A stretch of DNA of 64,000 nucleotides from Sphingosinicella sp. CPCC 101087 (GTDB lineage: Bacteria > Pseudomonadota > Alphaproteobacteria > Sphingomonadales > Sphingomonadaceae). Below, piece by piece: positions 46,006 through 64,000 of the stretch (positions within the stretch are counted from its first letter, which is position 1; every line of letters begins with the position of its first letter). The translations under genes were made by a program, and so were the position numbers. The stretch spans positions 248,001 to 312,000 of the forward strand of contig NZ_SBFF01000004.1 in NCBI RefSeq assembly GCF_004151485.1, given 5' to 3'. The notes under the pieces were generated by a model that searched no databases, was not told the origin of the DNA, and saw only the letters and a program-made list of their open reading frames with translations.

Positions 46006-46479
46006 ATGAACGACAGAAGCGCCTACGATCCTAGCAATCCTGACTTCCGGCTCGAGAACTCGCCCTTCTACCTGATGGCGCATGCGGACTTCAAATACCA
46101 CGAAGATATGGACAAGGTGCTTCACAAGCACGGTGTCTCGAAACCCATCTATCGAATCTTGACGGTCCTGCGCGAGCGCCAGCCCGCCAGCATTGGCGCC
46201 CTTGCCGAAGCGGCATTGACCAAGCGGACGACTGTCAGCCGGATAATCGACAGGATGATCGAACAAGGTCTCGTAACGACGGCCCCCAACCCGGAAGATA
46301 ATCGCATTACGGAGGTGATGCTGACTTCCGCCGGGCAGCAGAAGCTACGCAAGCTCACGCCTATCGTCGGCCGCCAGTTCGTGCGGGCGATGGAAGGGGT
46401 GAGTGACCGCGACATCGCGCATCTCCTGCGCACCTTGCACAAGATCAGCCAGAATCTCAGCAAGCTGCCGATCGAATAG
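46006..46479 (+). CDS. MarR-family regulator
   Basis: Winged-helix regulator of 157 residues. The recognition region is SIGALAEAALTKRTTVSRII and the wing PEDNRITEVMLTSAGQQ, with flanking dimerisation helices. MarR proteins usually repress catabolic or efflux genes and are released by aromatic or other small ligands. It converges with the amidohydrolase gene nine bases away and lies at the edge of the peptidase/TonB-receptor region, which is the likely regulon. Palindromes in its upstream region suggest autoregulation. Confidence 0.93.
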   Translation: MNDRSAYDPSNPDFRLENSPFYLMAHADFKYHEDMDKVLHKHGVSKPIYRILTVLRERQPASIGALAEAALTKRTTVSRIIDRMIEQGLVTTAPNPEDNRITEVMLTSAGQQKLRKLTPIVGRQFVRAMEGVSDRDIAHLLRTLHKISQNLSKLPIE

Positions 46480-46487
46480 GCCGCGGA

Positions 46488-47876
46488 TCAGGGCCGGTCG
46501 CGTTCGACGACGATTTCGCCGTCGGCGATGACGTAGCGAACGTTCTTCAAGTTGGCCAAGTCGTCGAGCGGATTGCCGGCCGTCACCAGAATGTCCGCGA
46601 TCTTGCCCGGTTCGACCGTCCCGAGCTTGTCTCCCATCCGCATGATCTGCGCGCCGACGCGGGTCGCGGAGGCGAGCACGTCCGCATTCGAAAGGCCGGC
46701 TTCGCGCAGATATTCCAGCTCGCGGAAATAGGCGTCCGGATAGCGTTTCTCGTTCTCGAACGGGATATCGGTTCCGACTCCGATCGGAACGCCGGCACGA
46801 TGCGCTTCGCCGACCCGCTGAAGATGCTTCTCCTGATCGATCGCGAACCGCCGGGAATGGGTGTAATAGAATCCCCCCGCCGGGATCCCGGCGGGGGGAT
46901 AGCCGGTCGTCAGCAGGTTGTGGAAAGCGCCGATCGTGGGCACGAAGGCGGTGCCGTGCTCGCGCATCAGCGGCACCGCGCGATCGCTCATGTGGAGCGG
47001 ATGCTCCAGCGTGTCGACGCCCGCACGAATGGCGATGTCCGTGTAGGTGCCATAGCTGTCGATCGCCACGGGAACGCCCAGCGAATGCGCCTCGTCGATC
47101 GCGGCCCGGATCTCCTCCTCGCTCGCCGGGGCACTGATCTTGATCCAGTCGGCAAGGCTCCTGACCTGCTCGCGAACCGCCTCGCGCCACTCCCATGGAC
47201 CATTCGCAACCCGGCGGCCACCGGTCGTCGCGCCCGAGCGCTGCCGACCGGTCGCGGTGGACGTGACCTCGTCGCCATGACCGCCGGTGCTGGCGATCAG
47301 GCCGCCGCTCCAGAAGACGCGCGGTCCACGGATGATCCGGCGGTCGACCCCCTCCTTGATGCGAAGCGCCACGTCCTGCACCGTTCCGACATCGCGCGCC
47401 GCAGTGATCCCGGCTTCGATGAGCTGCTCGGCCAAGGCGACGCCGCGTATCGCGGCCGCCGCCGGGCTGTCGGCGTAGTGCCCCATCTCGTCGCCGCGTT
47501 GCTGGGTGAAGTGAATGTGCAGATCGATCAGCCCGGGGAGGATGTGGAGGCCAGAGGCGTCGATCACTCGGGCTGCGCCCGGAGGAATCGGCGTCGACGT
47601 AGCCGGTCCGGCGGAAAGAATGCGGTCGCCCTGGAGAACCACCACCGCATTGGGGACGGGCGCGCCGCCGCGACCATCGATCAACGTTCCGCCAGCAAGG
47701 GCGATGATCGGCTCATGGCTGCGGTCGACGGGTGGGATCGGAAGCCGCCGGACATCGTCCGTCGTGTCATAGGCGCCGCGCTGCGCCGAGGCGGCCGAAG
47801 GCAGCAGCGAGAGCGCGGCAGCGATCAGGAGAAGGCGCACATTCCCGAGCACCGATCCTCTGTGACGGCTCGCCAT
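46488..47876 (-). CDS. Exported amidohydrolase-family metal enzyme
   Basis: Protein of 462 residues with a signal peptide (LLLIAAALSLLPSAASAQ) and an amidohydrolase TIM barrel: GGTLIDGRGG, LPGLIDLHIHF with the metal HxH pair, AGITAARDVG and TVEPGKIADILV at the end. The family covers imidazolonepropionase-like and prolidase-like enzymes that cleave peptides or cyclic amides. The start at 47876 has GGGAGG six bases upstream; a longer frame to 48005 lies in the divergent gene region. A promoter is proposed at 47913-47941. Confidence 0.9.
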   Translation of the reverse strand: MASRHRGSVLGNVRLLLIAAALSLLPSAASAQRGAYDTTDDVRRLPIPPVDRSHEPIIALAGGTLIDGRGGAPVPNAVVVLQGDRILSAGPATSTPIPPGAARVIDASGLHILPGLIDLHIHFTQQRGDEMGHYADSPAAAAIRGVALAEQLIEAGITAARDVGTVQDVALRIKEGVDRRIIRGPRVFWSGGLIASTGGHGDEVTSTATGRQRSGATTGGRRVANGPWEWREAVREQVRSLADWIKISAPASEEEIRAAIDEAHSLGVPVAIDSYGTYTDIAIRAGVDTLEHPLHMSDRAVPLMREHGTAFVPTIGAFHNLLTTGYPPAGIPAGGFYYTHSRRFAIDQEKHLQRVGEAHRAGVPIGVGTDIPFENEKRYPDAYFRELEYLREAGLSNADVLASATRVGAQIMRMGDKLGTVEPGKIADILVTAGNPLDDLANLKNVRYVIADGEIVVERDRP

Positions 47877-47904
47877 GTCGCGCCTCCCGCTGTTGTAACC
47901 GTTT

Positions 47905-47941
47905 ACACATGATTTAAAGCGTGATTGTGTGGCCGAGACAA
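47905..47941 (-). promoter_or_regulatory. Candidate promoter and dyad upstream of the amidohydrolase gene
   Basis: On the minus strand TTGTCT (47941-47936), 17 bases, TTTAAA (47918-47913). The dyad ACACA...TGTGT (arms at 47905-47909 and 47926-47930) spans it, and CACATGATT at 47906-47914 matches 9 of 9 bases of the site at 61532-61540. Confidence 0.4.
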
Positions 47942-48003
47942 GCGGTTTCTGCCGCCGCGCATCTTGCGGCCGTGGCGGGCGATCGGGACCTTTGGGAGAC
48001 CCC

Positions 48004-49809
48004 ATGAGGCAGGAGTCTATGCGGCAGATGCTCGGCGAGGCGATGCGGCTGGGGCAAGCCGGGCGCAGCGAGGCTGCCGAGAAGCTGCTGCAGCGCGTGC
48101 TGCATGCCTCGCCCGATCAGCCCGACGCCCTACAGCTGCTCGGCATGCTGGCGCGGGCGCGCGGCGCCAACCTGGAGGCGATCGCGCTGTTCGAACGATC
48201 GCTGAAGGCCAACCCGCGCCAGGCGCACGTCCTCAACAATCTCGGCAATGCGTTGCTCGAGCTCGGCCGCCATTCCGAGGCCGTGGACTCCTATCGGGCC
48301 GCCCTGCAGCTGGACCCCGGGCGCCGCGACGCGCGGACCAATCTCGGCCTCGCCTTGATCGCGTCCGGAGAGACCCGCGAAGCCTGCTCTCTCCTCCAGG
48401 CGACCGTGCGCGATTCGCCGCAGGATGCCAAGGCATGGGCGGCGCTGGGTCGCGCCTTGCGGGCGCAGTCGCGGCTCGACGAGGCGATTGCCGCCCTCGA
48501 GATCGCGCTTTCGCTCAGGCCCGCCCACGTGGCGACGATGCACAATCTCGCCGTTGCGCTGCGCCTTGCCGGACGGCCGCAAGATGCGCTTGGGCTTCTG
48601 AGGGCATGTGCGGCGGCCGATCGTAACGCACCGGAGATCAAATACAATCTCGGTCATTGCCTTCACGATCTCGGCGATCTCGCCGGGGCGATCGAGGCTT
48701 ATCGCACGGCGATCGCCCTCCGGCCGGGCGACCGGGACGCGCACGCTTCGCTCAACCGCCTCTACTGGCAGCTCGGCAACGAGGACAATCATCTGCGCAC
48801 TTATCGCGAGGCCCTGCGCAGCCGCCCGGCCGATGCGGGCCTGCTCGCTGACTTCGCTCATCAACTGAATCTCACCCATCGGCAGGCAGAGGCGGCGGCG
48901 TTGCTGTCCGAGGCCCTGGCGCGCGGAGTCGATGGCGCCGAGCTGCGCCATCGCCTCGCCCAGGCGCTGTGGTCGCAAGGCCGGCCGGATGAAGCCCTCA
49001 CCCAGTTGGCGGCCGGACTGGTATTGGATCCGGGCAATTCGATGCTCATCCGGGAGAAGGCCCGCTCGCTCATCTTTCTCGAACGCTATGACGAGGCTCT
49101 TGCGGTGCTGGGCGACGACGAAGGCGACCAGCAGGCCCTCGCCTATCGGGGCCTTTGCTGGCACTTTCTAGGCGATCCCCGCGCGGCTCGTCTGAACGAC
49201 CATGACCTTTTCGTCAGTAGCCGCGTGCTGAGCCCGCCGGCCGGGATGGGCGGCGTCCAGGCGTTCAATGCGCGCCTCGCCGCCATCCTGGGCGAGCTTC
49301 ATACCATGGCCCGCCATCCGCTCGAGCAGACGCTTCGCGGCGGTACGCAGACCATCGGCGACCTGCTCGATCGGCAGATCCCCGAAATCCAGGCGGTGCG
49401 CGCGATGATCGAGGCCGACCTCGCGCGCTACATCGCCTCGCTGCCCGACGATGCCGGCCATCCCTTCCTGCGGCGCAAGTCGAACGGCTTTGCCTTTTCG
49501 GGCTCATGGTCCGTCCGGCTCGGGCGCGGCGGCTATCATATGAACCATGTCCATCCGGAGGGATGGATCAGCTCATGCTATTATGTGGCACTGCCGCCGT
49601 CGGTGGAGGACGGCGGAAGGCATTCGGGATGGCTGAAGTTCGGCGAGAGCGCGCTCGGGCTCGGCGCGCGCGAGCCTCTCGCCAGGCTGGTGCGTCCCGA
49701 GGTCGGAATGCTTGTCCTGTTCCCTTCCTATTTCTACCACGGCACGATCCCGTTCGAGGATGAGGTCGCGCGCACGACCATCGCCTTCGACGTCGTACCC
49801 CGACCCTGA
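48004..49809 (+). CDS. TPR protein fused to a 2-oxoglutarate/Fe(II) oxygenase domain
   Basis: Protein of 601 residues. About residues 1-370 are TPR repeats (ALQLLGMLARARGANLEAIA, VLNNLGNALLELGRHSEAV, TNLGLALIASGETREACS). The C-terminal quarter is a TIGR02466-like putative 2OG-Fe(II) oxygenase: HMNHVHPEGWISSCYYVALP, GMLVLFPSYFYHGTIPF. The HxH and distal His are suitable for iron. Possible role: hydroxylation of a protein or peptide bound by the TPR part. The ATG at 48004 follows GGGAGA. It diverges from the amidohydrolase gene. No signal peptide. Confidence 0.85.
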   Translation: MRQESMRQMLGEAMRLGQAGRSEAAEKLLQRVLHASPDQPDALQLLGMLARARGANLEAIALFERSLKANPRQAHVLNNLGNALLELGRHSEAVDSYRAALQLDPGRRDARTNLGLALIASGETREACSLLQATVRDSPQDAKAWAALGRALRAQSRLDEAIAALEIALSLRPAHVATMHNLAVALRLAGRPQDALGLLRACAAADRNAPEIKYNLGHCLHDLGDLAGAIEAYRTAIALRPGDRDAHASLNRLYWQLGNEDNHLRTYREALRSRPADAGLLADFAHQLNLTHRQAEAAALLSEALARGVDGAELRHRLAQALWSQGRPDEALTQLAAGLVLDPGNSMLIREKARSLIFLERYDEALAVLGDDEGDQQALAYRGLCWHFLGDPRAARLNDHDLFVSSRVLSPPAGMGGVQAFNARLAAILGELHTMARHPLEQTLRGGTQTIGDLLDRQIPEIQAVRAMIEADLARYIASLPDDAGHPFLRRKSNGFAFSGSWSVRLGRGGYHMNHVHPEGWISSCYYVALPPSVEDGGRHSGWLKFGESALGLGAREPLARLVRPEVGMLVLFPSYFYHGTIPFEDEVARTTIAFDVVPRP

Positions 49810-49829
49810 CCGTGATGCCGGGCGCGTGC

Positions 49830-51578
49830 CTAGTCGGCTGCGCCTTGGCGGTCCGCGATCCAGCGGTCGACGAGCCGTTCCAGGACACTCATGGGCACCT
49901 GGCCCTGGGCAAGGATCAGATCGTGAAAAGCGCGCACGTCGAACCGGTCGCCCAGCATGCTCTCGGCGCGGGCGCGAAGCGCCACGATCCTGAGCTCGCC
50001 CACCTTGTAGGCGACCGCACCGGCAGGCGCGCCGATATAGCGGGCGAGCTCCGTGTCGATGTTGATGTCGGCGAGCGCCGTATTCTCGACGAAGCAGTCG
50101 CGGGCCTGCTCGTAGCTCCAGCCCATCACATGGATCCCCGTATCGACGACCATCCGGCACGCTCGCCACATCTCGTTGGACAGGCTGCCAAAGGCTTCAT
50201 AGGCGTCGCGGTAGACGCCCATCTCGTGGCCCAGCCTCTCGGCATAGAGAGCCCATCCCTCGCGATAGGCAAGCATGTCGCGCTGGCGCCGGAAGGCCGG
50301 CAGATCGTCATATTCGCTGGTCAGTGCGAAGTGGGTGTGGTGGCCGGGGGCCGCCTCGTGAAGCGCCAGCGAAGGTAGCTCGTACAGCGGCCGCTGGTCC
50401 AGGTGCGAGGTGTTGACGAGAAAGCGCCCCGGGAAACCACGGGCGAAATCTCCACCGCCATAACGCGCCGTCGTATAACCCTCCTCCACGTCGCGAGGGA
50501 CGGGCTCGATCGTGAACGGCTGACGCGGCAGCATGCCGAAATAGCGTGGAAGCACGCCGTCGATCCGCTTCGCAACCGCGCTCGCGCGCTCGATCAGCTG
50601 CTCGCGGCTGGTCGCATAGAAGCGGGAATCGGTACGCAAAAACTCCAGCCATTGGGCGAAGCTGCCCTGGAATCCGGCCGAGGCGATGACCCTGTCCATC
50701 TCGCCGCGAATGCGTTGCACTTCTGCCAGGCCCATCTCGTGGATCTGCTCGGCGCTGAGGTCCGTCGTCGTATAGTAGCGCAAGAGGAAGTCGTAATAGG
50801 CCCGGCCCTGCGGGATCGAGGCGATACCGATCGCCGGCCGCGCGCGAGCGCGATAGGCGCCATCGATATAAGCCAGCATCTCGCGCTGCGCCGGCCGGAC
50901 TTGGTTCGCGACAATGGCCGTCGCCTCGGCGATCCATGCCTCGCTTTCAGGCAGTTCCCTCAGAGGATCGAGGAGCGGATCGTCCTCGGGCCGCCGCCCG
51001 AAATGATTCCGAAGAACGCTGACCGCCACGTCCACCACGCGCTCGGGCTGTGTCCAGCCGGTGGCGACACCGCGCTCCAGATTGGCGCGCTGCTCGGCAA
51101 AATAAGCGGGAATGGCCGAAAGTCGGTCGATCCAGGCGCGTGCATCGGCCTCGTTCCGGACGATCGTCGAGCGTGCTGCGGAATAAGGCGTATTGTAGAA
51201 GCCCTCATGTGCGACGAAGGCGAAGCGGCGCTCGTCGAAGTCGATGCCTTCGATACGCCAGTCGACGAGCTGGCGTAGATAGTCGCGATTGATCGCCTCC
51301 TCGTCAGACAGCGATTGCCCCTCCGTCGCGGCGAGCGCGTCGCGCAGGGCCACGAGACCGCTCCGACGCTCGGCCATCGCGCCGGGCGTCTCGCTCGGCC
51401 ACCCTTCGGGCGCGCGGGAAGGATCGGAGCGGCCCGCCTCCATTGGATATCGTTCGGTAAACCGTTCGTAGCTGGCGATGATCTCCGAAAGCTCGGTTCG
51501 AGGCGCGGCCGCAACGAGCGCGAGGGCAGCGGCCCCGAGCCCGATCGACCTGGTCAGGCGGACAATCAATCCGGCCAC
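49830..51578 (-). CDS. DUF885 metallopeptidase-like protein, exported
   Basis: Protein of 582 residues with a signal peptide (LTRSIGLGAAALALVAAA). The zinc-binding HEAAPGHH is at residues 407-414 (HExxPGH pattern) and EGWALYAERLG follows, both intact. DUF885 proteins are predicted periplasmic metallopeptidases of the gluzincin type. It is the last gene of the leftward seven-gene operon, 14 bases after the FAD oxidoreductase. Substrate unknown. Confidence 0.9.
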   Translation of the reverse strand: MAGLIVRLTRSIGLGAAALALVAAAPRTELSEIIASYERFTERYPMEAGRSDPSRAPEGWPSETPGAMAERRSGLVALRDALAATEGQSLSDEEAINRDYLRQLVDWRIEGIDFDERRFAFVAHEGFYNTPYSAARSTIVRNEADARAWIDRLSAIPAYFAEQRANLERGVATGWTQPERVVDVAVSVLRNHFGRRPEDDPLLDPLRELPESEAWIAEATAIVANQVRPAQREMLAYIDGAYRARARPAIGIASIPQGRAYYDFLLRYYTTTDLSAEQIHEMGLAEVQRIRGEMDRVIASAGFQGSFAQWLEFLRTDSRFYATSREQLIERASAVAKRIDGVLPRYFGMLPRQPFTIEPVPRDVEEGYTTARYGGGDFARGFPGRFLVNTSHLDQRPLYELPSLALHEAAPGHHTHFALTSEYDDLPAFRRQRDMLAYREGWALYAERLGHEMGVYRDAYEAFGSLSNEMWRACRMVVDTGIHVMGWSYEQARDCFVENTALADINIDTELARYIGAPAGAVAYKVGELRIVALRARAESMLGDRFDVRAFHDLILAQGQVPMSVLERLVDRWIADRQGAAD

Positions 51579-51592
51579 GCGAAGCTCCCTCC

Positions 51593-52891
51593 TCAGTCCG
51601 ACAGATAGGCCATGGTCATCATCGCCTTCGGCAGCAGCTTCGCACCCCGGTAGAAGCGGATGGGGCTGGGCTGACGCGGGCGCACCGACAGGGCCTCCAG
51701 GTCGCCGGTCACGAGCGCCGTCGCCAGCTCGATGCCGATGGCCGTATTGATCGATATTCCGCGGCCGTTGCAGGCCTGAATCGCATAAGCTTGCTGACCG
51801 AGGTCATAGACTTCCGGCAGAAACGAGGCGTTGATCCACGCCACCCCCTCCCAGAGCACCTCGATGCCCACCGTCTCCAGCCCTTTGAAGCACTTCCCCA
51901 ATCGCCGCTTCGCCTCGGCGCGAAAGGCCTCTTGTCCGGAAACGAAGTAGGATTTGGGGAAAGCCGAAATCAGACGTCCGGCGCCGTCGTAGCGCGCCGT
52001 GAAGATATAGGGAGCCTTGTCGGTGAACGCCCCGCCTTGGGGAAGGATGAGGGTACGGAGATCGCTGGACAGCGGCTCCGTGGCGAATTCGACAACCTCG
52101 AGCGGCAGAACCGAGCGGTCCATCGCCGGGTGCAACCCGGGATTGCCGCCGTTGGCCGCCAGTACGACCCGCCTCGCGCTCACCACTCCCTTGGACGTCC
52201 GCGCCTGCCAGCGATCGCCGACATAGCCGAGTGCCTCGACAGGGGTGCGGATGTGCAGCTGCGCCCCGGCCGAAGCGGCAGCCCGCGCCAGGCCGCGGAC
52301 ATAAGCGATGGGATTGAGCGAGCCGCCCTGCCCGAAGCGCGACGAACCGCAATAGGCCGAGGTCCCGATCATGCGCTCCGTCTCGCGCGCGTCGAGAGTG
52401 GCCACGTCGAAGCCCCGCGCGCGCCACTGTTCGGCCGCGATACGTTGCGCAGAAGCGCGGCTGGGCGTGCAGACCGGCGAATAGAATCCGTCTTGGCGGG
52501 AGTCGCAGTCGATGCCGTGCCGCGCGATGAGCTCGAAGCAGCGCTGCGCCGAGCCGCCGACGAAGCGTGTCAGCCGCTCACCGGCCGCTCGGCCCAACGC
52601 CTGGCCTACCGCATCCGGATTGTGGCGCACGAAATCGGGAGCCACCAGGCCTCCGCTCTGACCCGTGGCGCCGCTGCCCAGCTCGCCGGCCTCGACCAGG
52701 AGAACGTCGCTTCCCGCCTCCGCGAGGTGCAGCGCGGTCGAGACTCCGGCAATCCCGCCGCCGACGATCAGCACGTCCGTTTCCGCATGGCCGGCGAGCG
52801 GCTCAAGCGCCGGACCGGCCGGCGCCGTACCTTGCCACAAGGACGGAGAAGAGGCGCACGGCTCGGCCGGTGCGCTTGAGGTCCGGCTCAT
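51593..52891 (-). CDS. FAD-dependent amine/amino-acid oxidoreductase (DAO family)
   Basis: Protein of 432 residues with the FAD dinucleotide motif DVLIVGGGIAGVSTALHL and TGQSGGLVAP, then a substrate domain with CNGRGISINTAIG near the C-terminus. It resembles PuuB/glycine oxidase-type enzymes that oxidise amines or N-substituted amino acids. The ATG at 52891 has GAGGG just upstream; a longer frame to 53026 runs back toward the BASS gene. It is likely cytosolic because no signal peptide is visible. Sits between a BASS transporter and a DUF885 gene. Confidence 0.87.
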   Translation of the reverse strand: MSRTSSAPAEPCASSPSLWQGTAPAGPALEPLAGHAETDVLIVGGGIAGVSTALHLAEAGSDVLLVEAGELGSGATGQSGGLVAPDFVRHNPDAVGQALGRAAGERLTRFVGGSAQRCFELIARHGIDCDSRQDGFYSPVCTPSRASAQRIAAEQWRARGFDVATLDARETERMIGTSAYCGSSRFGQGGSLNPIAYVRGLARAAASAGAQLHIRTPVEALGYVGDRWQARTSKGVVSARRVVLAANGGNPGLHPAMDRSVLPLEVVEFATEPLSSDLRTLILPQGGAFTDKAPYIFTARYDGAGRLISAFPKSYFVSGQEAFRAEAKRRLGKCFKGLETVGIEVLWEGVAWINASFLPEVYDLGQQAYAIQACNGRGISINTAIGIELATALVTGDLEALSVRPRQPSPIRFYRGAKLLPKAMMTMAYLSD

Positions 52892-53034
52892 CCTGCCCTC
52901 GGTCCCGGGGGAGCAATGAGAAGCGTGGAGGCGGTGCCGGAAGGAAAGAACGCCCTTCCGAGGGCAAGTATCGGCTGCGATGTCATCGGACTCGATTTTC
53001 CCTGGCGCCGCGGGGATGGCGCGCATGTCGTGAC

Positions 53035-53925
53035 TTAGGCGGCGGCCACGGCCGCGCCGGCTCTTCGGCGCGCGATGGCCACGAAGATCAGCACGACGAC
53101 GAGCGCCACCGGGGTGTTCAGGATCATTGGCAACGACATCTCGTTATTGCCCACGATCGAAACGGCGATGAAGATGGCCGTGCCCTCCTGCCGCATCAGA
53201 TGCTCGATCCCGATCGCGACATTCTCGCGCCTGGTGAGGCCGGCGAAGCGCACCAGGAGCATCACCAGCGTGATCATCGCCACGTTGAGCCCGACCGTGA
53301 TCCAGAACAGGGCGCCGAGATTCTCGCGCAGCACCGGAATCTGATCGGCGAGGATGAAACCGAACGAGGTGAACAGGACGACCGTCGCCACGCGCTTGAC
53401 GTGACCCTTGATCCAGATCGCGAAGTCCGGGCGGATCGCGCGGATCAGGAACCCCATACCGGCGGGGAGCACCGTGATGGAGAAGATGTCCCAGAAGAAG
53501 GAAGCCAGCGGCACTTCGACATTCGCTTCCACGCCCAGGAAGTGGAGGATCGCCAGGTGAGCGTAGAACGGGACGATGAAGACATAGACCATGCTGAGCA
53601 GGAGCGTCATCGACATCGACAAAGCGAGATCGCCCTTGGCCATGTCGGTGAACAAGTTGGACAGCATGCCGCTCGGCGTAGTCGCGAGGAGAATGAAGCC
53701 GACCGCCAGCGCCGGCGTGGGCGCAAGCGTCAGCGCGATGGCGAGCCCGATCAGCGGCGGCACGATCAGCATCGAGCAGAGTCCGATGATCAGAGCGCGC
53801 CTGTTGCGGAAAACCTGCCGGAAGTCGTCGGCGACCAGGGACAGCCCCATGGAAACCATGATTCCCACAAGCGCCCCCGGCAGCAGCCAGTCGCCCATGA
53901 ACGCCATCAGGTCGGAATAGGACAT
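53035..53925 (-). CDS. BASS-family (bile acid:sodium symporter) transporter
   Basis: Inner-membrane transporter of 296 residues with about nine helices, including ALVGIMVSMGLSL, GFILLATTPSGMLSNLFTDM, LSMVYVFIVPFY and AIFIAVSIVGNNEMSLPM. The SNxxT and PxG-type signatures and the long helix pairs fit BASS carriers, which move organic acids, pantothenate or bile acids with sodium. It is the only inner-membrane importer in the operon and so is the candidate for uptake of a breakdown product. Confidence 0.88.
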   Translation of the reverse strand: MSYSDLMAFMGDWLLPGALVGIMVSMGLSLVADDFRQVFRNRRALIIGLCSMLIVPPLIGLAIALTLAPTPALAVGFILLATTPSGMLSNLFTDMAKGDLALSMSMTLLLSMVYVFIVPFYAHLAILHFLGVEANVEVPLASFFWDIFSITVLPAGMGFLIRAIRPDFAIWIKGHVKRVATVVLFTSFGFILADQIPVLRENLGALFWITVGLNVAMITLVMLLVRFAGLTRRENVAIGIEHLMRQEGTAIFIAVSIVGNNEMSLPMILNTPVALVVVLIFVAIARRRAGAAVAAA

Positions 53926-56094: not shown

Positions 56095-58329
56095 CTACGG
56101 GTTCGGAGTCAAATGCCGGTTGAAGAACTCGACCATCTTCTTGAACGCGAAGCGGGTCTGGGCGAGATTGTCGCTGGCCCAGGCGTGGTTGGCACCGGGC
56201 AGCGTCACCAGCTCGAACATCTGCTCGTTGGCGATCATCCGCTCGGCCAGGGCGATCGTATCCGAGTAGAGCACGACCGGGTCGCGCGTGCCGTGAATGA
56301 TCATCAGTGGATCGCGGACGCCCTGCACCTGGAACAGCGGCGACTGCGCTTCGTATCGGGCGGGCATGTCCGGGCCGTCCGGCGGGCCCATGATCCACAT
56401 CTGGGAGGGGTAAGCGTGCCAGACGTTCGTGGCAGGCGCGCCCGCAATGCCCGCCGCATAGACTCCCGGCTTCTTGGCCAGCGACATGATCGTCATGAGA
56501 CCCCCATAGCTGGAGCCCCAGATGCCGACCCGCTGCGGGTCGACAAAGCCTTGCTCGACGAGATAGCGGACGCCGCTCTCCAGGTCGTTGATGTCCGTCT
56601 CGCCGTAGCTGTGGAGCTGGCCGTGCGTGTGGCTCCGTCCTTGGCCCCAGCTTCCCCGGATGTTGACGTTGAGAACGATGTAGCCCTGGGCGACGAAATA
56701 CTGGTCGATGCCCCAGGTCGGGTGAGCGCGGCGACCGCCCCACTGGTTGCGGACGGCATCGGAATAGACCGAGCCCACGATCAGGGGATAATGCCTGGAA
56801 GGGTCATAGTTGGCGGGAAGGCTCAGCCGGCCGATCAACGGAGTCCCGTCGACATGGCTGGCAAATTCGACATAGCTGATGTCCGCCCAGGTCTGGCGGG
56901 AGAATTCCGGCTGGGGTGAACGGGTCACCTGCGCCGGCTGATCCGGCCGATCGGGATCGAGGACGAACAGTTCGGGCGGCGTCATATCGTTGGTGAAGAA
57001 GCTCGCTATGCGGCGGAAGTCGGGAGAATAAACGGGCGCGTGGGTGCCGGGCGTGCTCGGGCTCACCCGCTCGATAGCCCCGCCGGCGAGGCCGACGCGG
57101 TAGAGCTGTCGTTCCGCCAGGTGGGATTCGTTGGCAACGAAGTATACCCGCTCGCTTCGACCATCGACCGCGAAGGACTCGATTTCCCATTCACCATGGG
57201 TGATCTGCCGCGGCGCGCTTTGGGCGGTCTCCTTGTGGTAGAGATGGAGATAGCCGTCCCGGTCGGTGAGGATGATCAGCCCACGATCGCCGGGAGCCCA
57301 GGCCACCCGCCAATCCGGACGGATATGGCGTGGGTCGCGCTCCTGGTAGAAAATCTCGCGCCTCCCGCTCGCAACCTCGTAGACGTAGACCACATGCTCC
57401 TTCACCTCGAGGTCGGAGCTGTTGATGAACAGGCGACGGCCATCCTCGGAAAGGCCGAAGCCCCAGACGTGATGCTTCGGATCAGGCCGCTCGAACAGGC
57501 GTGTCTCGAGCGTCGAAAGGTTGACCGTTCCGATCTGGGTGCGCGTCGTCTCGTCGCCGGGAAAGGCGCGGATCACGCGATTGTTCTGAAGCTCGCCCTT
57601 GGCATAATGATAGATGTCGCGTTCAGGCATGGCCCGATCGTCCGACAGCTCGAAGGCGATGGTTCGGCTGTCGGAGGACCAATGATAGGACGAAACATAG
57701 ACCTTCGGATCGTCTTCGCCCGCAACACGGCGCGCGCTGTCTGGGCGTGAGGCGGCCGCATCGCGGGTCCAGAGGATGCCACCGCGCGTGACCCGGTTGC
57801 GCGGATCGAAGGGGGCGCCGGAAAGAAAGGAAAGGTGGCGCCCGTCGGGGGACAAAGCGAGCTGGCGCACGGCCTGCTTGTCCTGCTCGACCGGGATAAT
57901 CGCGCCGTCCGGCTCGCGGATATGAAGCTTGCCGTCCAGCGCGAAGGCGATCCGATCTCCCTGCAGGAAGACGGCCTCCGCAATCCCGCGCTTCTCGGTC
58001 TCTGGCGGCACGTCCTTCCCGAGAAAAGTGAGCCGGGTCCGTTCGCCGCTCTCCGGGACGTAGGCCCACAAGTCGCGGAAGCTGTAACCTTCGTCGTTCC
58101 AGAGAAAGAGCACCCTCTTGCCGTCGGCCGACCAGCTATAGCCTTCCGGCGTCGTGCCGATCAGGCTCCGATGCTGGTAGAGCTCGTCGATCGAGAGGCT
58201 GGTCCCCGGCACGGCCGCCGTTCCCGCCGCCCGCGCATGCGATTGGGCCTGCGCGGAGCTCGCGGGAACGATCGTGACGAGCAGCAGCAGCGCGGCCGCC
58301 GCCATGGAGAGCATGCGGTGTCTGTTCAT
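56095..58329 (-). CDS. S9 peptidase, DPP IV/acylaminoacyl-like, exported
   Basis: Protein of 744 residues. Signal peptide LSMAAAALLLLVTIVPAS, a beta-propeller (GYSWSADGKRVLFLW, QLALSPDGRHLSFLSG) and an alpha/beta hydrolase domain. The triad is Ser 607 in GSSYGG, Asp 683 in GTRDPVV and His 715 in GANHAW. It probably cuts dipeptides or blocked residues from peptides in the periplasm. Stop directly abuts the DUF885 start. The TonB-receptor stop is 49 bases upstream on the same strand. Confidence 0.94.
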   Translation of the reverse strand: MNRHRMLSMAAAALLLLVTIVPASSAQAQSHARAAGTAAVPGTSLSIDELYQHRSLIGTTPEGYSWSADGKRVLFLWNDEGYSFRDLWAYVPESGERTRLTFLGKDVPPETEKRGIAEAVFLQGDRIAFALDGKLHIREPDGAIIPVEQDKQAVRQLALSPDGRHLSFLSGAPFDPRNRVTRGGILWTRDAAASRPDSARRVAGEDDPKVYVSSYHWSSDSRTIAFELSDDRAMPERDIYHYAKGELQNNRVIRAFPGDETTRTQIGTVNLSTLETRLFERPDPKHHVWGFGLSEDGRRLFINSSDLEVKEHVVYVYEVASGRREIFYQERDPRHIRPDWRVAWAPGDRGLIILTDRDGYLHLYHKETAQSAPRQITHGEWEIESFAVDGRSERVYFVANESHLAERQLYRVGLAGGAIERVSPSTPGTHAPVYSPDFRRIASFFTNDMTPPELFVLDPDRPDQPAQVTRSPQPEFSRQTWADISYVEFASHVDGTPLIGRLSLPANYDPSRHYPLIVGSVYSDAVRNQWGGRRAHPTWGIDQYFVAQGYIVLNVNIRGSWGQGRSHTHGQLHSYGETDINDLESGVRYLVEQGFVDPQRVGIWGSSYGGLMTIMSLAKKPGVYAAGIAGAPATNVWHAYPSQMWIMGPPDGPDMPARYEAQSPLFQVQGVRDPLMIIHGTRDPVVLYSDTIALAERMIANEQMFELVTLPGANHAWASDNLAQTRFAFKKMVEFFNRHLTPNP

Positions 58330-58378: not shown

Positions 58379-61246
58379 CTAGAAGTTTGCCGTAATGCCG
58401 ACGGTGAAGCGGCGGCCGATCGCATCGTAGGTCTGGCGCTCGTAGAGCTGGAAGGGCGGATCGCGGTCGAACAAATTGTCGACCGTGCCATAGAATCTGA
58501 ACCGCTCGTTGATGCGGACGCTGGCGGAAAGGTCGAAATAATGGACGTCCGGGGTCTTCGGCACCGCCAGCAGCGGCGGCGCCGATCCGGTCGAGATCGC
58601 GGCGGCGAAGCGCCCGTCGGTGGCGGACCCTATGAAGCGGTGGCGCAGGGACACCTGGTAGATGTCCTGCTCCCATGTCAGGCGTTGGGTGAAGCGCCAA
58701 TGCGGGTTGGCGCTGCCGCAGCTTCCTCCGCCGATATAGCCGGCGCAGTCGATCGGATTGAGAACCGGGCTGCTGGTCGTCTCATTCTCGAAGAGGTAGG
58801 CGCCGGCGAGAAAGTAGGAAAGTTCTCCATAGCGTCCGATGCCGTGCCGGTAGTCCAGGCGGAAATCGATGCCCGATGCCGTGATCTCGGCGATGTTCTG
58901 GTTGAGCAGCGGAACGTCCTGGAGCTGGCCGTCCGGCGTGCGGGTCGCAAGGGGGACGCAGAACGGGTTGGCAAGGGACAGCTCGGTCCTGCAGGCGTTG
59001 ATGGTCGGCTGGAGGCCGCCGCCGAACACGGCGATCGCGTCGCTGATCTTGATGTTGTAATAGTCGACCGTGACTTGCAGGTTCGGCACGAATTCGGGGC
59101 GAATGACCGCGCCCACAGACCAGGTGTCGGAGGTTTCCTCGTGCAAGTCGGGGTTACCGCCGGTGATGGCGCGGATCTGCACATTCTCCTGCTGAAATAC
59201 GTCGATCAGGCTCGCCGGAACGCCGAGTTCCATGCAGAAGGTGCGTTCGGCGGCCGTTCGGGTCGGCGTCGCATTACAGAAGTCGGTCGCGAGCGGAGCC
59301 GTGTTCGTCGCACCGGAATAAAGCTCGGTGATGTTCGGCGCGCGGACCGCTCGCTGGTACAGTCCGCGGAACTTGATGCCCCGGATCGGAGAATATTCGC
59401 CGCCCGCCTTGTAGGAGACGACCGAGCCAGCGGTCGAATAATCGGAGTAGCGGACGCCGCCTTCGAAGGCGAGCAGTTCGAAACCGGGGCGATCGGCGAG
59501 GATCGGAACGTAGATTTCGCCGAACACCTCGCTGACGTCATAGCTGCCGCCCGTCGGCTGCAGACCGGCCGAGCGGGAAATCGCCTCTCCCAGCACGTAG
59601 AGCTGGTCGGGCCTGAAGCTGGCGGATTCGCGACGATATTCCGCGCCCAGTGCTATACCCACGTCGCCGGCAGGCAGAGTGAAGAGCGACCCGGAGAGCG
59701 TTCCGCCGACCTGGGTCTGGCGGACCCGGGTCATGTTCGTCAGGTCGACGTCGTAATAGTCCACCATTTCGGGCGTGAGGGAGCCGAGGCCGAACGGATT
59801 GATGACGACGCATTTCGGATCGCCGTTGGCACAGGCATAGGGATCGTCCGGGTCGGTGAGGAACATCGCCGCAAAGCGGTCGATATAGACCCCGCCGCCC
59901 TGCTGGTCGGTGAGGTCGTTCTCGCCATGGTTGAAGAAGACCTCCCAGTTCAGGCGATCGGTGAGGCCGCCCCTCAGGCCGATCACGCCGCGCCAGAAGT
60001 CGCGCTGCTGGTCGCTGGTGCGCGGACCGGATTCGAGCACTCGGCGGTTGATGTTGAGCGGGACCAGCCCGTCGCCGTCCCCGTCCAGGCTGGCGCTCAG
60101 GAAATCGCGCAGGGAAGGATCGAGATAGGGGTTGCGCAGGTCGAGCTGGAAACCCGGGATGAAGCCGGAACTGCTCATCGGCAGCGGGCCGAGGGCCGAC
60201 TTCACCCGGTTGCGCGCATAGGTGCCTTCCCAGAAAAAGGTGACGCCATCGGTGACGTCATAGTGGCCAAGCACCGCGCCCTGGATTCGTTCGAGCGGGA
60301 GCTGGAGATTGTTGAACGGACGGTCGTTGAAGCCGTCACTGGTCCGGTAGGCGCGCCACCCTTCCTCGGCAAAGAAGATGCCTTGAGGGCCGATCACATT
60401 GCCGAACTGATCGGTACGGCCGACCAGGGCAGGCGAGAAGATGGTGCCTTGCGGGGTTACCGCATTTCCGCCGGGGACGAGCACGCCGACGCCGTTCTGG
60501 ACCGAGTCGACCAGGAATTCGGTCGCATGGTCGCGCGCCGAAGCGAAGGTCTGCTCACGCTTGAAGTAGTTGGCATAGAAGACGATGTTGCCGCGACCTT
60601 CGGCGAAGTTCCCGCCGACGGTCAGGTCGACATTGTAGCGGGCCGAGTCGCCGCGCTCGGAGATCCCGGCCTGGGCGCCGATCTCCACGCCCTCGAAATC
60701 GTCCTTCATCACGAAGTTGACGACGCCCGCCATGGCGTCAGAGCCGTAGACGGCAGAGGCGCCGCCGGTGACGACGTCGATGCGCTCGATCAGCGCCGGC
60801 GGAATCAGGTTGATGTCGACCACCCCGTCCTCGCCCGAGCCGACTATCCGACGGCCGTTCATCAGGACGAGCGTACGCACCGTACCGAGGTTGCGAAGGT
60901 TGACCGTCGCGGTTCCGTTGCCGGGATTGTTCGACTGAGAGCCGAAGCCTGCCGTGAACTGCGGCATCGAGTTCAGGATCTGCTCGGTTTCGTTGGCCGC
61001 GGTCAGCTGGATTTCCTCCGCGCTGATCACGTTGACCGGGCTGTTGGAGACAATGTCCGGCCGCGGAATGCGCGAGCCGGTGATGACGATCGAATCCTCT
61101 GCCCCGGGCTGGCTCGCGGCCGATTCGGCAGCGATCGCGTCGTCGGCCGTCTGGGCGACCGCCGCTTCGGCGGCGAATGCCGCGAGGATGATCGCCGTGC
61201 CGTCCCTGAGAGACCTGCGCCTCGCCATAACCCCCTTCGATCCCAT
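58379..61246 (-). CDS. TonB-dependent outer-membrane receptor
   Basis: Protein of 955 residues. A signal peptide (DGTAIILAAFAAEAAVAQ) is followed by a TonB box (SIVITGSRIPR), a plug domain (NLGTVRTLVLMNGRRIVG, RIDVVTGGASAVYGSDAMAG) and a 22-strand barrel ending in a terminal Phe (GITANF). ATG 61246 has GGAGGAG seven bases upstream. First gene of the seven-gene operon. In this family, receptors in peptidase operons usually bring in peptides or glycans; the ligand is unknown. Confidence 0.95.
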   Translation of the reverse strand: MGSKGVMARRRSLRDGTAIILAAFAAEAAVAQTADDAIAAESAASQPGAEDSIVITGSRIPRPDIVSNSPVNVISAEEIQLTAANETEQILNSMPQFTAGFGSQSNNPGNGTATVNLRNLGTVRTLVLMNGRRIVGSGEDGVVDINLIPPALIERIDVVTGGASAVYGSDAMAGVVNFVMKDDFEGVEIGAQAGISERGDSARYNVDLTVGGNFAEGRGNIVFYANYFKREQTFASARDHATEFLVDSVQNGVGVLVPGGNAVTPQGTIFSPALVGRTDQFGNVIGPQGIFFAEEGWRAYRTSDGFNDRPFNNLQLPLERIQGAVLGHYDVTDGVTFFWEGTYARNRVKSALGPLPMSSSGFIPGFQLDLRNPYLDPSLRDFLSASLDGDGDGLVPLNINRRVLESGPRTSDQQRDFWRGVIGLRGGLTDRLNWEVFFNHGENDLTDQQGGGVYIDRFAAMFLTDPDDPYACANGDPKCVVINPFGLGSLTPEMVDYYDVDLTNMTRVRQTQVGGTLSGSLFTLPAGDVGIALGAEYRRESASFRPDQLYVLGEAISRSAGLQPTGGSYDVSEVFGEIYVPILADRPGFELLAFEGGVRYSDYSTAGSVVSYKAGGEYSPIRGIKFRGLYQRAVRAPNITELYSGATNTAPLATDFCNATPTRTAAERTFCMELGVPASLIDVFQQENVQIRAITGGNPDLHEETSDTWSVGAVIRPEFVPNLQVTVDYYNIKISDAIAVFGGGLQPTINACRTELSLANPFCVPLATRTPDGQLQDVPLLNQNIAEITASGIDFRLDYRHGIGRYGELSYFLAGAYLFENETTSSPVLNPIDCAGYIGGGSCGSANPHWRFTQRLTWEQDIYQVSLRHRFIGSATDGRFAAAISTGSAPPLLAVPKTPDVHYFDLSASVRINERFRFYGTVDNLFDRDPPFQLYERQTYDAIGRRFTVGITANF

Positions 61247-61603: not shown

Positions 61604-63307
61604 ATGCTAAAGGGAACGGGTCTATTCGCCGCCTTGCTGTTGGCGGGGTGCGCGGCGCTCGCGCCGTCGGCCGCCGTCGCGACGGAAGCGAATGCGCAGA
61701 CCGCACCCGACCCGGCCGGCCCGCCCCGAGGGCCCGGCAGCTACGAAGACTTCGTCGCCTTCTTTACCGAATTCCACGAATGGCGGTCGTCACGTCCGGC
61801 CGACGGGGTGGTCGACTATAGCCCTGCGGCCGTCGATCGGCGCCGCGAGCAGCTTCGGGCTTTTCAGGCGCGACTGCCCGCTTTTTCGGTCGCGACCTGG
61901 GACCGTCACAAGCAGGTCGACTATCTCGCCGTCCGTGCGCAGCTCGACCTGGAGGATTTCACGCTCAACGTCACCAAGCCGTGGGCGCGTGATCCCGGCA
62001 TGTATATCGACGAGATTCAGCGTCTCGCCTACACCGAACTGCCGCTCCAGGGGGACGAGCTGGCGACGTTCCGGACCCGACTGAGCCGCATTCCCGCTTA
62101 TCTGGCCCAGGCCAGGGTCAATCTCGATTCCGTGGCGGGCGATTATGCCGATCTCGCTCTGCACAATCTCTCCAACGGCGATGGCGTGGGCCACGGCATG
62201 CCCTACCGGGCGGTGGAGCCGGAAGGCCTGATCGGCTGGTTCGCGGATTTGCGCGAGCGGGCCGAACGGCAGCAGCCGGAGCTGGTCGCCGATATCCGGG
62301 CTGCCGAGGAGGCAATCGAGCAATATCGCCAGTGGTTGGTGGCCAACCGGCCCCGCATGACCGGACAGGCCGGCGTGGGACGGGCGGCCTATGACTGGTT
62401 TGTGACCAACGTCCGCCTGATGCCTTATACGTCGGACGAGATCGTCGTGCTCGCCCAGCGCGAGCTGGAGCGTCACTGGGCCTTCTATACCGCCGAGCGG
62501 CATCGCAACCGCAATCTTCCCGAGCTCGAGCTGGCCCGTTCCGAGGAGGAATATGAAGCGCAGCTTGCCGGGACCGACGCGATGATCCGACGTTGGCTGG
62601 TCGAGGAGGAGATCCTTAGCGTCCCCGACTATATGCCCAAGACTTACCAGGAGATGGGCTACAACGCGCCGTGGATCGTTCGCCCAGATGGGCCGATGTT
62701 CTGGGAGCAGGTCCAGTTCCGCGACGCGTCACCCGACCACCTGCACGCCACGTTCCCCGGCCACCGGTTCGACGGGCATGCGGCTCGGCGGATCCAGCAC
62801 CCGATCCGTGCCCATGTCCAGGACAGCGGACGCACGGAAGGTTGGGGATTCTATCTCGAGGAAATGGCGCTCCAGCTCGGCTTGTTCGACGAGCGGCCCC
62901 GCACGCGCGAGCTCATCTACATCTTCGGGCTGTTCCGCGCCGCCCGGACGATCGGCGACGTGAAGATGCAGCGCAACGAGATGAACGTCGAGCAGGTAAT
63001 GAATTTCTGGAAGGAATGGACACCCTATCTCGACGACAATGTCGCCCGGGTGGATGCGGCCATCTACCTGCGCCGCCCGCCGGGGTACGGGATGACCTAC
63101 ACGATCGGAATGATGCAGCTCCAGCGGCTCCTCGTCGATCGACGCCGGCAGCTCGGCGATGATTTCTCGCTGCGCGATTTCCACGATTATCTGATGAGCG
63201 CCGGCCGCCTTCCCGTATCGTTGCTGCGATACGACCTCACCGGCCACGATGACGAGGTCGCGCGGCTCTGGGATCATAGACCGCTGACACAGCTCGAACT
63301 CGATTGA
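61604..63307 (+). CDS. DUF885 lipoprotein lacking the catalytic Glu
   Basis: Protein of 567 residues with a lipobox (LLLAGC, Cys 16) and a DUF885 domain. EGWGFYLEEM is intact but the zinc motif HExxPGH reads HATFPGH (His 381, Ala 382, His 387), so the general-base Glu is missing. It may bind a substrate or metal without hydrolysing it. AGGAGG four bases before ATG 61604 fixes the start. It diverges from the TonB-receptor operon and precedes the aminotransferase by 55 bases. Confidence 0.88.
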   Translation: MLKGTGLFAALLLAGCAALAPSAAVATEANAQTAPDPAGPPRGPGSYEDFVAFFTEFHEWRSSRPADGVVDYSPAAVDRRREQLRAFQARLPAFSVATWDRHKQVDYLAVRAQLDLEDFTLNVTKPWARDPGMYIDEIQRLAYTELPLQGDELATFRTRLSRIPAYLAQARVNLDSVAGDYADLALHNLSNGDGVGHGMPYRAVEPEGLIGWFADLRERAERQQPELVADIRAAEEAIEQYRQWLVANRPRMTGQAGVGRAAYDWFVTNVRLMPYTSDEIVVLAQRELERHWAFYTAERHRNRNLPELELARSEEEYEAQLAGTDAMIRRWLVEEEILSVPDYMPKTYQEMGYNAPWIVRPDGPMFWEQVQFRDASPDHLHATFPGHRFDGHAARRIQHPIRAHVQDSGRTEGWGFYLEEMALQLGLFDERPRTRELIYIFGLFRAARTIGDVKMQRNEMNVEQVMNFWKEWTPYLDDNVARVDAAIYLRRPPGYGMTYTIGMMQLQRLLVDRRRQLGDDFSLRDFHDYLMSAGRLPVSLLRYDLTGHDDEVARLWDHRPLTQLELD

Positions 63308-63362
63308 GCCCGACCCTTCGTCGACCACCCCGAGCAGCAGTCCAACCCCGGAGCCCCAATCG

Positions 63363-64000
63363 ATGAAATGGCCGTCAAGGCGCCTGATTCAAAGCTCGAG
63401 GAAGAGCTTTGGCATGTACGAGCAGGCTGCGCAGCTCGAGTCCGCGGGCCTGGACCTCATCCACCTCGAATTCGGCCGCCCGCACGCCGACACCCCCGTA
63501 CACATCAAGGATGCGGTCAAGGACGCGCTCGATGCCGGCATCGTCCACTATGGCGACTTTCGGGGCACGCTTGGCTTGCGCGAGGCTCTGGCGGCCAAGC
63601 TGCGCGACTTCAACGGGCTCGACTATGGGCTCGACGAGATACTCGTCACCAACGGCCTCACCCACGGGTCCTTCGCCGCCTTCATGGCCGCGATCGATCC
63701 GGGCGACGAGGTCATCCTGCTCGAGCCCTATTATCCGCAGCATATCGGCAAGACCGAACTGGCGGGTGGGCGCGTCGTCACCGCACCGCTCGATGCCGCC
63801 AACGATTTCGCGATATCGAAGGAAGCCATCGCGGCCAGGATCACGCCCCGCACCCGGATGATCGTGCTCGTCAATCCGGCGAATCCGACCGGCCGGGTCT
63901 ATTCTCGCGAAGAACTTCAGCATGTCGCCGACCTTGCGATCGCGAACGATCTGCTGGTCCTGTCGGACGAGGTCTACGAATATATCACCTACGACAAGGC
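63363..64000 (+). CDS. Class I/II PLP-dependent aminotransferase, 3'-truncated by the window edge
   Basis: The visible 212 residues show the N-terminal part of a fold-type I aminotransferase: HLEFGRPHADTP, HYGDFRGTLGLREALA, TNGLTHGSFAAFMAAIDPGD, LLEPYYPQHIG, LVNPANPTGRVYS and LSDEVYEYITYD. The last holds the PLP-pyridine Asp and Tyr; the Schiff-base Lys lies beyond the edge. It follows the DUF885 lipoprotein by 55 bases on the same strand and would act on amino acids released from peptides. The start is ATG 63363, with GGAG nine bases upstream. Confidence 0.92.
   Translation, partial: MKWPSRRLIQSSRKSFGMYEQAAQLESAGLDLIHLEFGRPHADTPVHIKDAVKDALDAGIVHYGDFRGTLGLREALAAKLRDFNGLDYGLDEILVTNGLTHGSFAAFMAAIDPGDEVILLEPYYPQHIGKTELAGGRVVTAPLDAANDFAISKEAIAARITPRTRMIVLVNPANPTGRVYSREELQHVADLAIANDLLVLSDEVYEYITYDK

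Follow-up and report, generated by a model that had tools for sequence, protein, structure and literature searches.

A 64,000-nucleotide stretch of the Sphingosinicella sp. CPCC 101087 genome (C34:248001-312000, on contig NZ_SBFF01000004.1 of a 4.70-Mb, 44-contig assembly; hereafter the window) closes within a gene cluster predicted to encode a TonB-dependent receptor, exported peptidases, several DUF885 proteins, a DUF3830 protein, a DAO-type oxidase, and a pyridoxal phosphate (PLP) enzyme. We give about even credence to the proposal that this locus is dedicated to breaking down, via isatin, an amino acid that derives from tryptophan, is supplied in peptides, and bears a secondary amine (in a ring or N-substituted). 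The window truncates the locus; the contig runs on to 319395, and the sequence past the window carries a predicted isatin hydrolase together with genes for IorA and IorB, ending 85 bases after the last of these. The hydrolase, IorAB, and a monooxygenase/reductase encoded elsewhere in the genome point to a substrate derived from indole or tryptophan.

Homology and motif identify the PF04199 cyclase past the window as a probable isatin hydrolase of the isatin hydrolase A type. Against the Protein Data Bank (PDB), the E-value is 1.8e-114 for isatin hydrolase A (5nnb), as compared with 1e-7 for kynurenine formamidase. The signatures given for isatin hydrolases in the available part of PMC6117287 are a metal motif, GLQC or GLAS, and a WxW pocket; the window-genome protein has the metal/catalytic motif HxGTHxDxPxH as HTGTHFDAPIH at residues 89-99, retains GLQC, and reads WYW at residues 79-81 of the aromatic pocket. 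Among the 22 loci with a match to this cyclase (two genomes being counted twice, and L035 and L062, from one genome, being unreadable), the metal motif is HTGTHFDAPxH in 18, HSGTHFDAPHH in two (L111, L130), and unread in two; the signature is GLQC in 17, GLAS in one (L089), neither in L111 and L130, and unread in two. Kynurenine formamidase KynB was rejected as the identity of the cyclase (TIGR03035, 36.6 bits against a cut-off of 223), as was the kynurenine pathway more generally: kynureninase scores above its cut-off in 13 of the 16 family genomes that carry the cluster in any form, in none of them at the cluster coordinates. Membership of the IorAB family is likewise assigned by homology, with IorB above the cut-off of its model (NF006179, 677 bits against 348) and IorA below that of the indolepyruvate:ferredoxin oxidoreductase alpha subunit (TIGR03336, 279 bits against 650.9).

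The cluster was surveyed in 298 genomes of the family with a profile search for DUF3830 (PF12903), which found the domain in 21 genomes at 22 places; 20 of these were taken as 12-20 kb stretches, and G217 is represented only by a 3.4-kb search locus. The full cluster is present in 11/298 genomes, the window genome included, and a reduced core in five more (L042, L046, L048, L051, and L031, the last spanning only 3.4 kb), for 16 genomes with the cluster in any form. Ten of the 21 other loci share an identical order (TonB receptor, S9 peptidase, DUF885a, DUF3830, BASS carrier, DAO, classical DUF885, and divergent DUF885b), with a MarR gene inserted ahead of the classical DUF885 in three of the ten, and six contain other DUF3830 genes without the cluster. 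Orthologues of the divergent DUF885 lipoprotein D885b that are at least 73% identical occur in 11 genomes, every one with the cluster. The sequence-only reading of the window had named a synteny search in which these genes were rarely together as the outcome that would speak against it; no such scattering was seen. D885b relatives of 47-54% identity occur without DUF3830 in six genomes (G276, G286, G214, G167, G072, G260), three of which have a second, more distant match approximately 8.5 kb away; these may represent a sister locus for another substrate.

The presumed lower pathway is distributed with the cluster. Hydrolase-type genes (at least 61% identity) occur in 14 of the 16 cluster genomes as compared with 19 of the 282 others (Fisher 2e-13, a value that ignores shared ancestry and genome size), and in eight of those 14 the hydrolase lies within 20 kb of DUF3830. 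A monooxygenase/reductase of the salicylyl-coenzyme A (CoA) 5-hydroxylase/AbmA type is identified by homology (E up to 1e-150) in 55/298 family genomes: 14/16 with the cluster against 41/282 others, and 33/33 with the hydrolase against 22/265 without it, counts that likewise ignore shared ancestry. The two cluster genomes that lack the monooxygenase also lack the hydrolase. The hydrolase and monooxygenase are at most 20 kb apart in 15 of the 33 genomes, eight of which have no cluster, and the monooxygenase lies within 30 kb of DUF3830 in five of 14 (G095, G157, G083, G248, and G057). Scores against PRK08255 exceed the cut-off of 1078 in the window genome (1287.7), L135 (1268.6), and L133 (1161.8), and fall just below it in Komagataeibacter (1053). 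In G095 and G248 the monooxygenase is followed by short-chain dehydrogenase/reductase (SDR) and acyl-CoA dehydrogenase genes; in the window genome the corresponding genes sit on a different contig from the locus. By eye, an open reading frame (ORF) near that operon (L185:18859-19998) resembles a D-threonine-aldolase-type PLP enzyme. We infer that the monooxygenase substrate is 2-aminobenzoyl-CoA rather than salicylyl-CoA.

Beyond the family, DUF3830 is paired with DAO across a broad range of bacteria. A DUF3830 profile was searched against 84,980 genomes (one per species), and the best 80 of 171 relatives constitute the named loci, drawn from sphingomonads, Brevundimonas, Komagataeibacter, metagenome-assembled genomes (MAGs) of Gammaproteobacteria, Rhizobiales, Rhodobacterales, and Caballeronia/Paraburkholderia. 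DAO (by tblastn, at least 29% identity, inside the fetched stretch) accompanies DUF3830 in 76/80 loci. Among 29 control stretches without DUF3830, partly non-independent in that L140 overlaps L194 and several stretches lie next to clusters, DAO was found at that threshold in three and at any level in four; L188, itself a cluster locus, was excluded from this set. Only one control match is long, a paralogue adjoining a cluster (L134:3003-4124, genome G057); this second DAO is 43% identical, stands with an amidohydrolase, and may belong to a paralogous pathway. IorA, IorB, and the cyclase all fall inside the fetched stretch of 16/80 loci. One locus, L063, is a sphingomonad-type cluster with proteins 54-74% identical on a contig labelled as an Anaerolineaceae MAG, probably a mis-binned contig or a mislabelled genome.

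The isatin module adjoins DUF3830 and DAO in separate lineages. In 3/3 Komagataeibacter loci, DUF3830-DAO-aminotransferase-MarR is divergent from IorA-IorB-isatin hydrolase, with the monooxygenase present in all three; in L087 the monooxygenase is followed by SDR, RidA, and BASS genes. Plasmid pSBC1_4 of Caballeronia SBC1 carries, within approximately 23 kb, a branched-chain-type ATP-binding cassette (ABC) transporter, a class V PLP enzyme, GntR, DUF3830, DAO, IorA, IorB, a thioesterase, a salicylyl-CoA 5-hydroxylase/oxidoreductase, cupin, FAH, a carbon-nitrogen hydrolase, a racemase-family gene, and MarR; its cyclase is 65% identical to the window-genome isatin hydrolase and keeps GLQC. Three Deinococcus plasmids encode, in one direction, two M24 Xaa-Pro-type peptidases, a class V PLP enzyme, a FAD oxidoreductase, and DUF3830, accompanied by a third, divergent M24 gene and by an ABC transporter. 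A thiamine diphosphate enzyme is additionally encoded on one of these plasmids, together with a cyclase that shares 51% identity with the hydrolase and in which GLTS replaces GLQC.

No Rieske gene of the IadCDE type was found among the locus genes scanned, the contig ending after IorB; five matches to the AndAc profile in the window genome lie on contigs C1, C2, C3, C7, and C14, not on C34. Anthranilate dioxygenase was rejected as a general lower pathway, AndAc exceeding its cut-off in 1/16 cluster genomes (G021); in Paraburkholderia L123, AndAc and AndAd both exceed curated cut-offs beside DUF3830-DAO. Neither the scanned or labelled genes of Komagataeibacter nor the annotated Caballeronia stretch, for which the gene table is incomplete, showed an indole oxygenase, other flanks being only partly annotated; the upstream module may therefore deliver an already oxygenated indole.

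Features of the locus are collected in Table 1. ORF listing and Pfam/NCBIfam scans bear out the genes and coordinates that the sequence-only reading had assigned, as well as its seven leftward genes with tight junctions (49, 0, -4, 16, 143, and 14 bases from the TonB receptor to the classical DUF885, the 143 between BASS and DAO shrinking to 8 if the upstream DAO start at 53026 is used) and its divergent DUF885 lipoprotein and aminotransferase, which are set apart from the predicted leftward operon by 357 bases (61247-61603). It had omitted the gene for a tetratricopeptide repeat (TPR) protein with a 2-oxoglutarate (2OG)-Fe(II) oxygenase domain, which lies between the amidohydrolase and the leftward operon and is kept with the cluster in 16/23 core loci. 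The amidohydrolase and MarR gene described there as flanks do occupy those positions; both recur alongside the cluster in several other genomes (MarR1 orthologues, 82-94% identical, occur in 8/10 other full-cluster genomes), and they are therefore probably part of it. Scans at the locus found one promoter-like site against 1.5 expected and five terminator-like sites against 7.6 expected.

Table 1. Genes of the cluster in the window and in the sequence that follows it; numbers without prefix are window positions.
Feature	Position	Strand	Evidence
MarR-family regulator (MarR1)	46006..46479	+	PF01047 E=7.8e-13
Predicted exported amidohydrolase, nearest Xaa-Pro dipeptidase/amide hydrolases	46488..48005	-	PF01979 E=1e-37
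TPR protein, C-terminal 2OG-Fe(II) oxygenase domain	47929..49809	+	PF13759 E=2.8e-21
DUF885, classical branch (DUF885cl), HExxPGH intact	49830..51578	-	PF05960 488 bits
DAO-type FAD-dependent amine/amino-acid oxidase	51593..53026, likely start 52891	-	PF01266 E=6.6e-46
BASS-type (SBF) inner-membrane carrier	53035..53925	-	PF01758 E=2.2e-26; TIGR00841 92.8 bits (below cut-off 326.3)
DUF3830, cyclophilin-like fold	53942..54421	-	PF12903 E=5.3e-36
Divergent DUF885 (D885a), HEGVPGH intact, lipobox-like N-terminus by eye	54418..56094	-	PF05960 186 bits
Predicted exported S9 peptidase, dipeptidyl-peptidase-IV type	56095..58329	-	PF00326 + PF00930
TonB-dependent receptor	58379..61246 (ORF open back to 61564)	-	PF00593, PF07715
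Divergent DUF885 lipoprotein (D885b), Glu of HExxPGH replaced (HATFPGH)	61604..63307	+	PF05960 147 bits
Class I/II PLP enzyme, aminotransferase-like, start only in window	63363..64000	+	PF00155 E=8.3e-59
Same gene, whole, completed past window	L010:2363-3532		PF00155
Additional divergent DUF885, past window	L010:3575-5287		
MarR, then cyclase (isatin hydrolase), IorA, IorB	past window; MarR convergent with right-hand operon		

Several of the predicted exported enzymes resemble proline-type peptidases. The amidohydrolase, with an N-terminus that appears by eye to be a signal peptide, scores 210.9 bits against the NCBIfam Xaa-Pro dipeptidase model (cut-off 500), and its PDB matches include the amidohydrolases 9kov and 8ihq, the Xaa-Pro dipeptidase 2qs8, and the prolidase 3feq, with ochratoxinase 4c5y lower. 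The best PDB match of the S9 peptidase is a dipeptidyl peptidase IV (2ecf, E=2.4e-57), and its orthologues carry GSSYGG (27/29) or GLSYGG (2/29). Genes of the M24 family (PF00557) are present in 5/11 displayed genomes and in Deinococcus. The genome as a whole returns 20 DUF885 matches representing 19 genes, because two of the matches are pieces of gene 54418-56094; the family is thus expanded, and its low-scoring, divergent members are 54418-56094, 61604-63307, and the copy past the window. The pattern HEAAPGH is found in 17/19 orthologues of the classical DUF885 and HETAPGH in 1/19, the pattern having matched elsewhere in the remaining one; D885a orthologues read HEGVPGH in 22/23, with the pattern absent in one; and D885b orthologues read HATxPGH (HATFPGH/HATIPGH) in 19/21 and HAVIPGH in 1/21, with the pattern again absent in one. 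A further member, D885c, reads AHNLPGH and also lacks the glutamate of HExxPGH. We suppose this glutamate to be catalytic, and we read D885a and the classical DUF885 as likely metallopeptidases and D885b and D885c as altered enzymes or binding proteins. A fold search with the D885b model returned only DUF885 structures at E < 0.001; oligoendopeptidase F and BsuCP, considered as fold relatives, were too weak (E 0.04-0.16) and were set aside. The literature matches listed for DUF885, judged by titles and abstract openings, include none on function.

The nearest family of the DAO protein is the L-pipecolate oxidase AmaA (NF050086, 219.5 bits, and 267.8 for the Caballeronia DAO, against a cut-off of 600). 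Its single sequence gave no match in the PDB at 1e-10, and a profile gave eight, including glycine oxidases, dimethylglycine dehydrogenases, sarcosine oxidase, and L-amino acid deaminase. In the alignment of DUF3830-linked DAO proteins, a CNGRG motif close to the C-terminus is also invariant. The N-substituted amino acid that the sequence-only reading had suggested as substrate is consistent with this L-pipecolate-oxidase-like protein and with the proline-type peptidases, but its opine and betaine suggestions found no support: no opine-oxidase model appears among the best 25 of 63 NCBIfam families matched by DAO. DUF3830, for which the literature searched contained no mention, was modelled with AlphaFold2 at a predicted local distance difference test (pLDDT) score of 89.6. 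In Foldseek its matches rank as 3kop (same type), then the L-tryptophan-binding Pictet-Spenglerases KslB/McbB (E 1.4e-5 to 1.8e-3, TMq 0.51-0.67, probability 1.00), then cyclophilins; a sequence search had no KslB/McbB chain among 15 matches at E up to 10. The PLP enzyme matches GntC best among NCBIfam models (310 bits, cut-off 415), an enzyme whose name implies a gamma-hydroxy amino acid as substrate; the closest PDB structures to the PLP enzyme are aspartate and aromatic aminotransferases.

These assignments can be arranged into a pathway. Homology and motif support its isatin hydrolase, the family membership of IorAB, the monooxygenase/reductase, and the linkage of the parts; we infer the route from peptide to isatin, the roles of DUF3830 and of each DUF885, and the action of IorAB on isatinate. 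The TonB receptor would bring a peptide or conjugate into the periplasm, where the dipeptidyl-peptidase-IV-like S9 enzyme, the DUF885 proteins, and the Xaa-Pro-type amidohydrolase would liberate the modified amino acid for transport into the cytosol by the BASS carrier. DAO with its partner DUF3830 would then oxidise and open the secondary amine, and the PLP enzyme would cleave off a side chain of three carbons as alanine or pyruvate, leaving isatin. Isatin hydrolase would convert isatin to isatinate, a 2-oxo acid that IorAB may convert to 2-aminobenzoyl-CoA, and the AbmA-type monooxygenase/reductase would begin ring breakdown. Outer-membrane import, periplasmic cleavage, inner-membrane import, and oxidation had been foreseen by the sequence-only reading and fit the gene anatomy; the isatin end lay outside its view.

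Among tryptophan-derived residues with a secondary amine, 3a-hydroxypyrroloindoline and dioxindolylalanine suggest themselves as sources of isatin that would need no oxygenase, and the substrate is perhaps the former. Dioxindolylalanine and pyrroloindole carboxylic acid are among the tryptophan degradation products named in the portion available of PMC8228365, and singlet oxygen converts tryptophan to hydroperoxypyrroloindole and dioxindolylalanine (PMC8838016, in excerpt). The mass balance closes, dioxindolylalanine (C11H12N2O4) being equal to isatin (C8H5NO2) plus alanine (C3H7NO2). In its most specific form, which is doubtful, the proposal is that proline-type peptidases free 3a-hydroxypyrroloindoline-2-carboxylate, a proline-like photo-oxidation product; that DAO and DUF3830 convert it to dioxindolylalanine, which the PLP enzyme cleaves to isatin and alanine; and that DUF3830 is a catabolic enzyme with a Pictet-Spenglerase fold and the DUF885 proteins are exported peptidases and binding proteins. 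The literature searched, seen in part, contained no description of a bacterial pathway for oxidised tryptophan residues, of pyrroloindoline catabolism, or of isatinate conversion by IorAB.

Several observations weigh against a peptide-to-isatin pathway, and most of them favour an alternative that we consider less likely: that the isatin hydrolase and IorAB are mere neighbours belonging to indole or indole-3-acetic acid breakdown, and that the substrate of the DUF3830-DAO-DUF885 locus is an N-substituted amino acid or peptide of a different, non-indolic kind. In the window genome, MarR, the hydrolase, and IorAB form a predicted separate transcription unit with its own regulator, convergent with the right-hand operon. 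In six of the 14 cluster genomes with a hydrolase it does not lie within 20 kb of DUF3830, being far away on the same contig in two and on other contigs of draft assemblies in four, and 19 family genomes that lack the cluster nevertheless have both hydrolase and monooxygenase. Isatin hydrolase is found as well in operons of indole type and resembling those for indole-3-acetic acid: in Azospirillum it adjoins a gene annotated as styrene/indole monooxygenase, and in Roseibium it is accompanied by a Rieske oxygenase and an AMP-binding protein. The hydrolase has the look of a plug-in module. Sphingomonas and Sphingopyxis are reported to contain iad-like clusters in fragmentary form (PMC11630574). 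Marine and Rhizobiales DUF3830-DAO loci mostly show no isatin module nearby. Only 2/37 mostly Rhizobiales DUF3830 loci have an isatin-module gene within 10 kb, both being cyclases of 46-47% identity that have neither GLQC nor GLAS and stand without DAO; in a middle group such a gene is present in 3/20 loci, all Komagataeibacter. DUF3830-DAO is therefore not tied to isatin everywhere; the pair may have more than one substrate, or else its connection with isatin is a secondary one. Importers differ too, with a branched-chain-type transporter permease in 34 of the 37 loci; L100, L102, and other Rhizobiales loci combine DUF3830-DAO with a branched-chain-type ABC transporter, GntR, and an aldo/keto reductase. 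However, a mere neighbour would not readily account for the hydrolase's enrichment in cluster genomes, for its all-or-none occurrence with the monooxygenase among them, or for the several lineages, Komagataeibacter and the Caballeronia plasmid among them, in which the module lies within the cluster.

Other points bear on individual steps of the proposed isatin route. The class of the PLP enzyme varies by lineage, being class I in the window genome and class V in Caballeronia and Deinococcus. The curated NCBIfam name of the monooxygenase is salicylyl-CoA 5-hydroxylase/oxidoreductase, and in some relatives its neighbours are gentisate-dioxygenase-like (in G057 it adjoins such a gene); the aromatic intermediate is therefore not fixed. 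Genome G297 has a BenA/AntA-like Rieske gene approximately 26 kb from DUF3830 (454.8 bits, cut-off 781), so that not every cluster genome can be said to lack oxygenases. L144:12024-16855 of that genome holds two Rieske-type genes, one of them BenA/AntA-like, approximately 22-27 kb from DUF3830; such genes were not systematically sought beside other clusters. Finally, the KslB/McbB match may reflect only a shared cyclophilin-like fold in the model.

That fold similarity is the starting point of another, improbable alternative, in which the substrate is a tetrahydro-beta-carboline-3-carboxylate (from tryptophan and an aldehyde) that DUF3830 would return to tryptophan by a retro-Pictet-Spengler reaction, with the aminotransferase and IorAB then yielding indoleacetyl-CoA. 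KslB and McbB bind L-tryptophan, DAO resembles L-pipecolate oxidase, and such compounds form readily from tryptophan (PMC8228365). This route, however, does not by itself reach isatin, the Komagataeibacter genes scanned or labelled include no indole oxygenase, and DUF3830 is a single 159-residue domain as compared with KslB/McbB chains of 273-314 residues. Least probable is hydrolysis of auxin-amino-acid or other N-acyl conjugates, with the exported amidohydrolase, M20/M24, and DUF885 enzymes releasing the free acid and DAO and the aminotransferase processing the amino acid: the many exported amide hydrolases, an amidohydrolase related to prolidases and more distantly to ochratoxinase, and the iad-like neighbour (PMC9613470, PMC12633357) would suit it, but the locus genes scanned include no IadDE-like Rieske gene, the five AndAc-profile matches lie on other contigs, and the DUF3830-DAO pair is left unexplained.

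The proposed tryptophan-derived route can be set beside known systems. The iad loci of Variovorax, Achromobacter, and Bradyrhizobium, for which IorAB are markers and which follow an isatin-to-anthranilate route (PMC9613470, PMC12633357, both available in part), resemble this locus in having IorAB-like IadA/IadB, IadI annotated as kynurenine formamidase, MarR control, and, on the proposed reading, passage through isatin/isatinic acid to anthranilate. They differ in their Rieske IadCDE, of which no counterpart was found among the genes scanned here; the upstream part of this locus instead consists of the TonB receptor, exported peptidases, DUF885 proteins, DUF3830, DAO, and PLP enzyme, and its proposed lower part is of CoA type. 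The indole-oxidation-like operon of Azospirillum shares the hydrolase family (78.5% identity to the window-genome protein) but has its styrene/indole-monooxygenase-annotated neighbour, a kind of gene that was not noticed in the DUF3830 loci read. The Azoarcus-type 2-aminobenzoyl-CoA monooxygenase/reductase pathway has its parallel in a two-domain FAD/FMN enzyme that, in relatives of the window genome, is found close to the cluster along with genes for SDR, acyl-CoA dehydrogenases, thioesterase, and RidA, but no CoA ligase was noticed among the genes read beside the monooxygenase, and IorAB is proposed as the thioester source instead. That route is listed for anthranilate in the available part of PMC6221969. 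The Pictet-Spenglerases KslB/McbB have the cyclophilin-like fold in common with DUF3830, which lacks sequence similarity to them, is approximately half their length, and stands in a catabolic gene context. The microcystin-degrading mlr system of Sphingosinicella concerns related sphingomonads and a peptide substrate; no shared gene family is claimed, the mlr genes not having been searched for.

If the proposed pathway is correct, it would assign a testable function to DUF3830 and to one branch of DUF885, and it would constitute a third upstream entry into the isatin route, beside indole oxidation and auxin degradation. It would also identify IorAB, the markers of iad loci, with the step from isatinate to 2-aminobenzoyl-CoA. 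Should the substrate prove to be oxidised tryptophan, the locus would suggest a recycling pathway for sunlight-damaged or aged protein in environmental bacteria.

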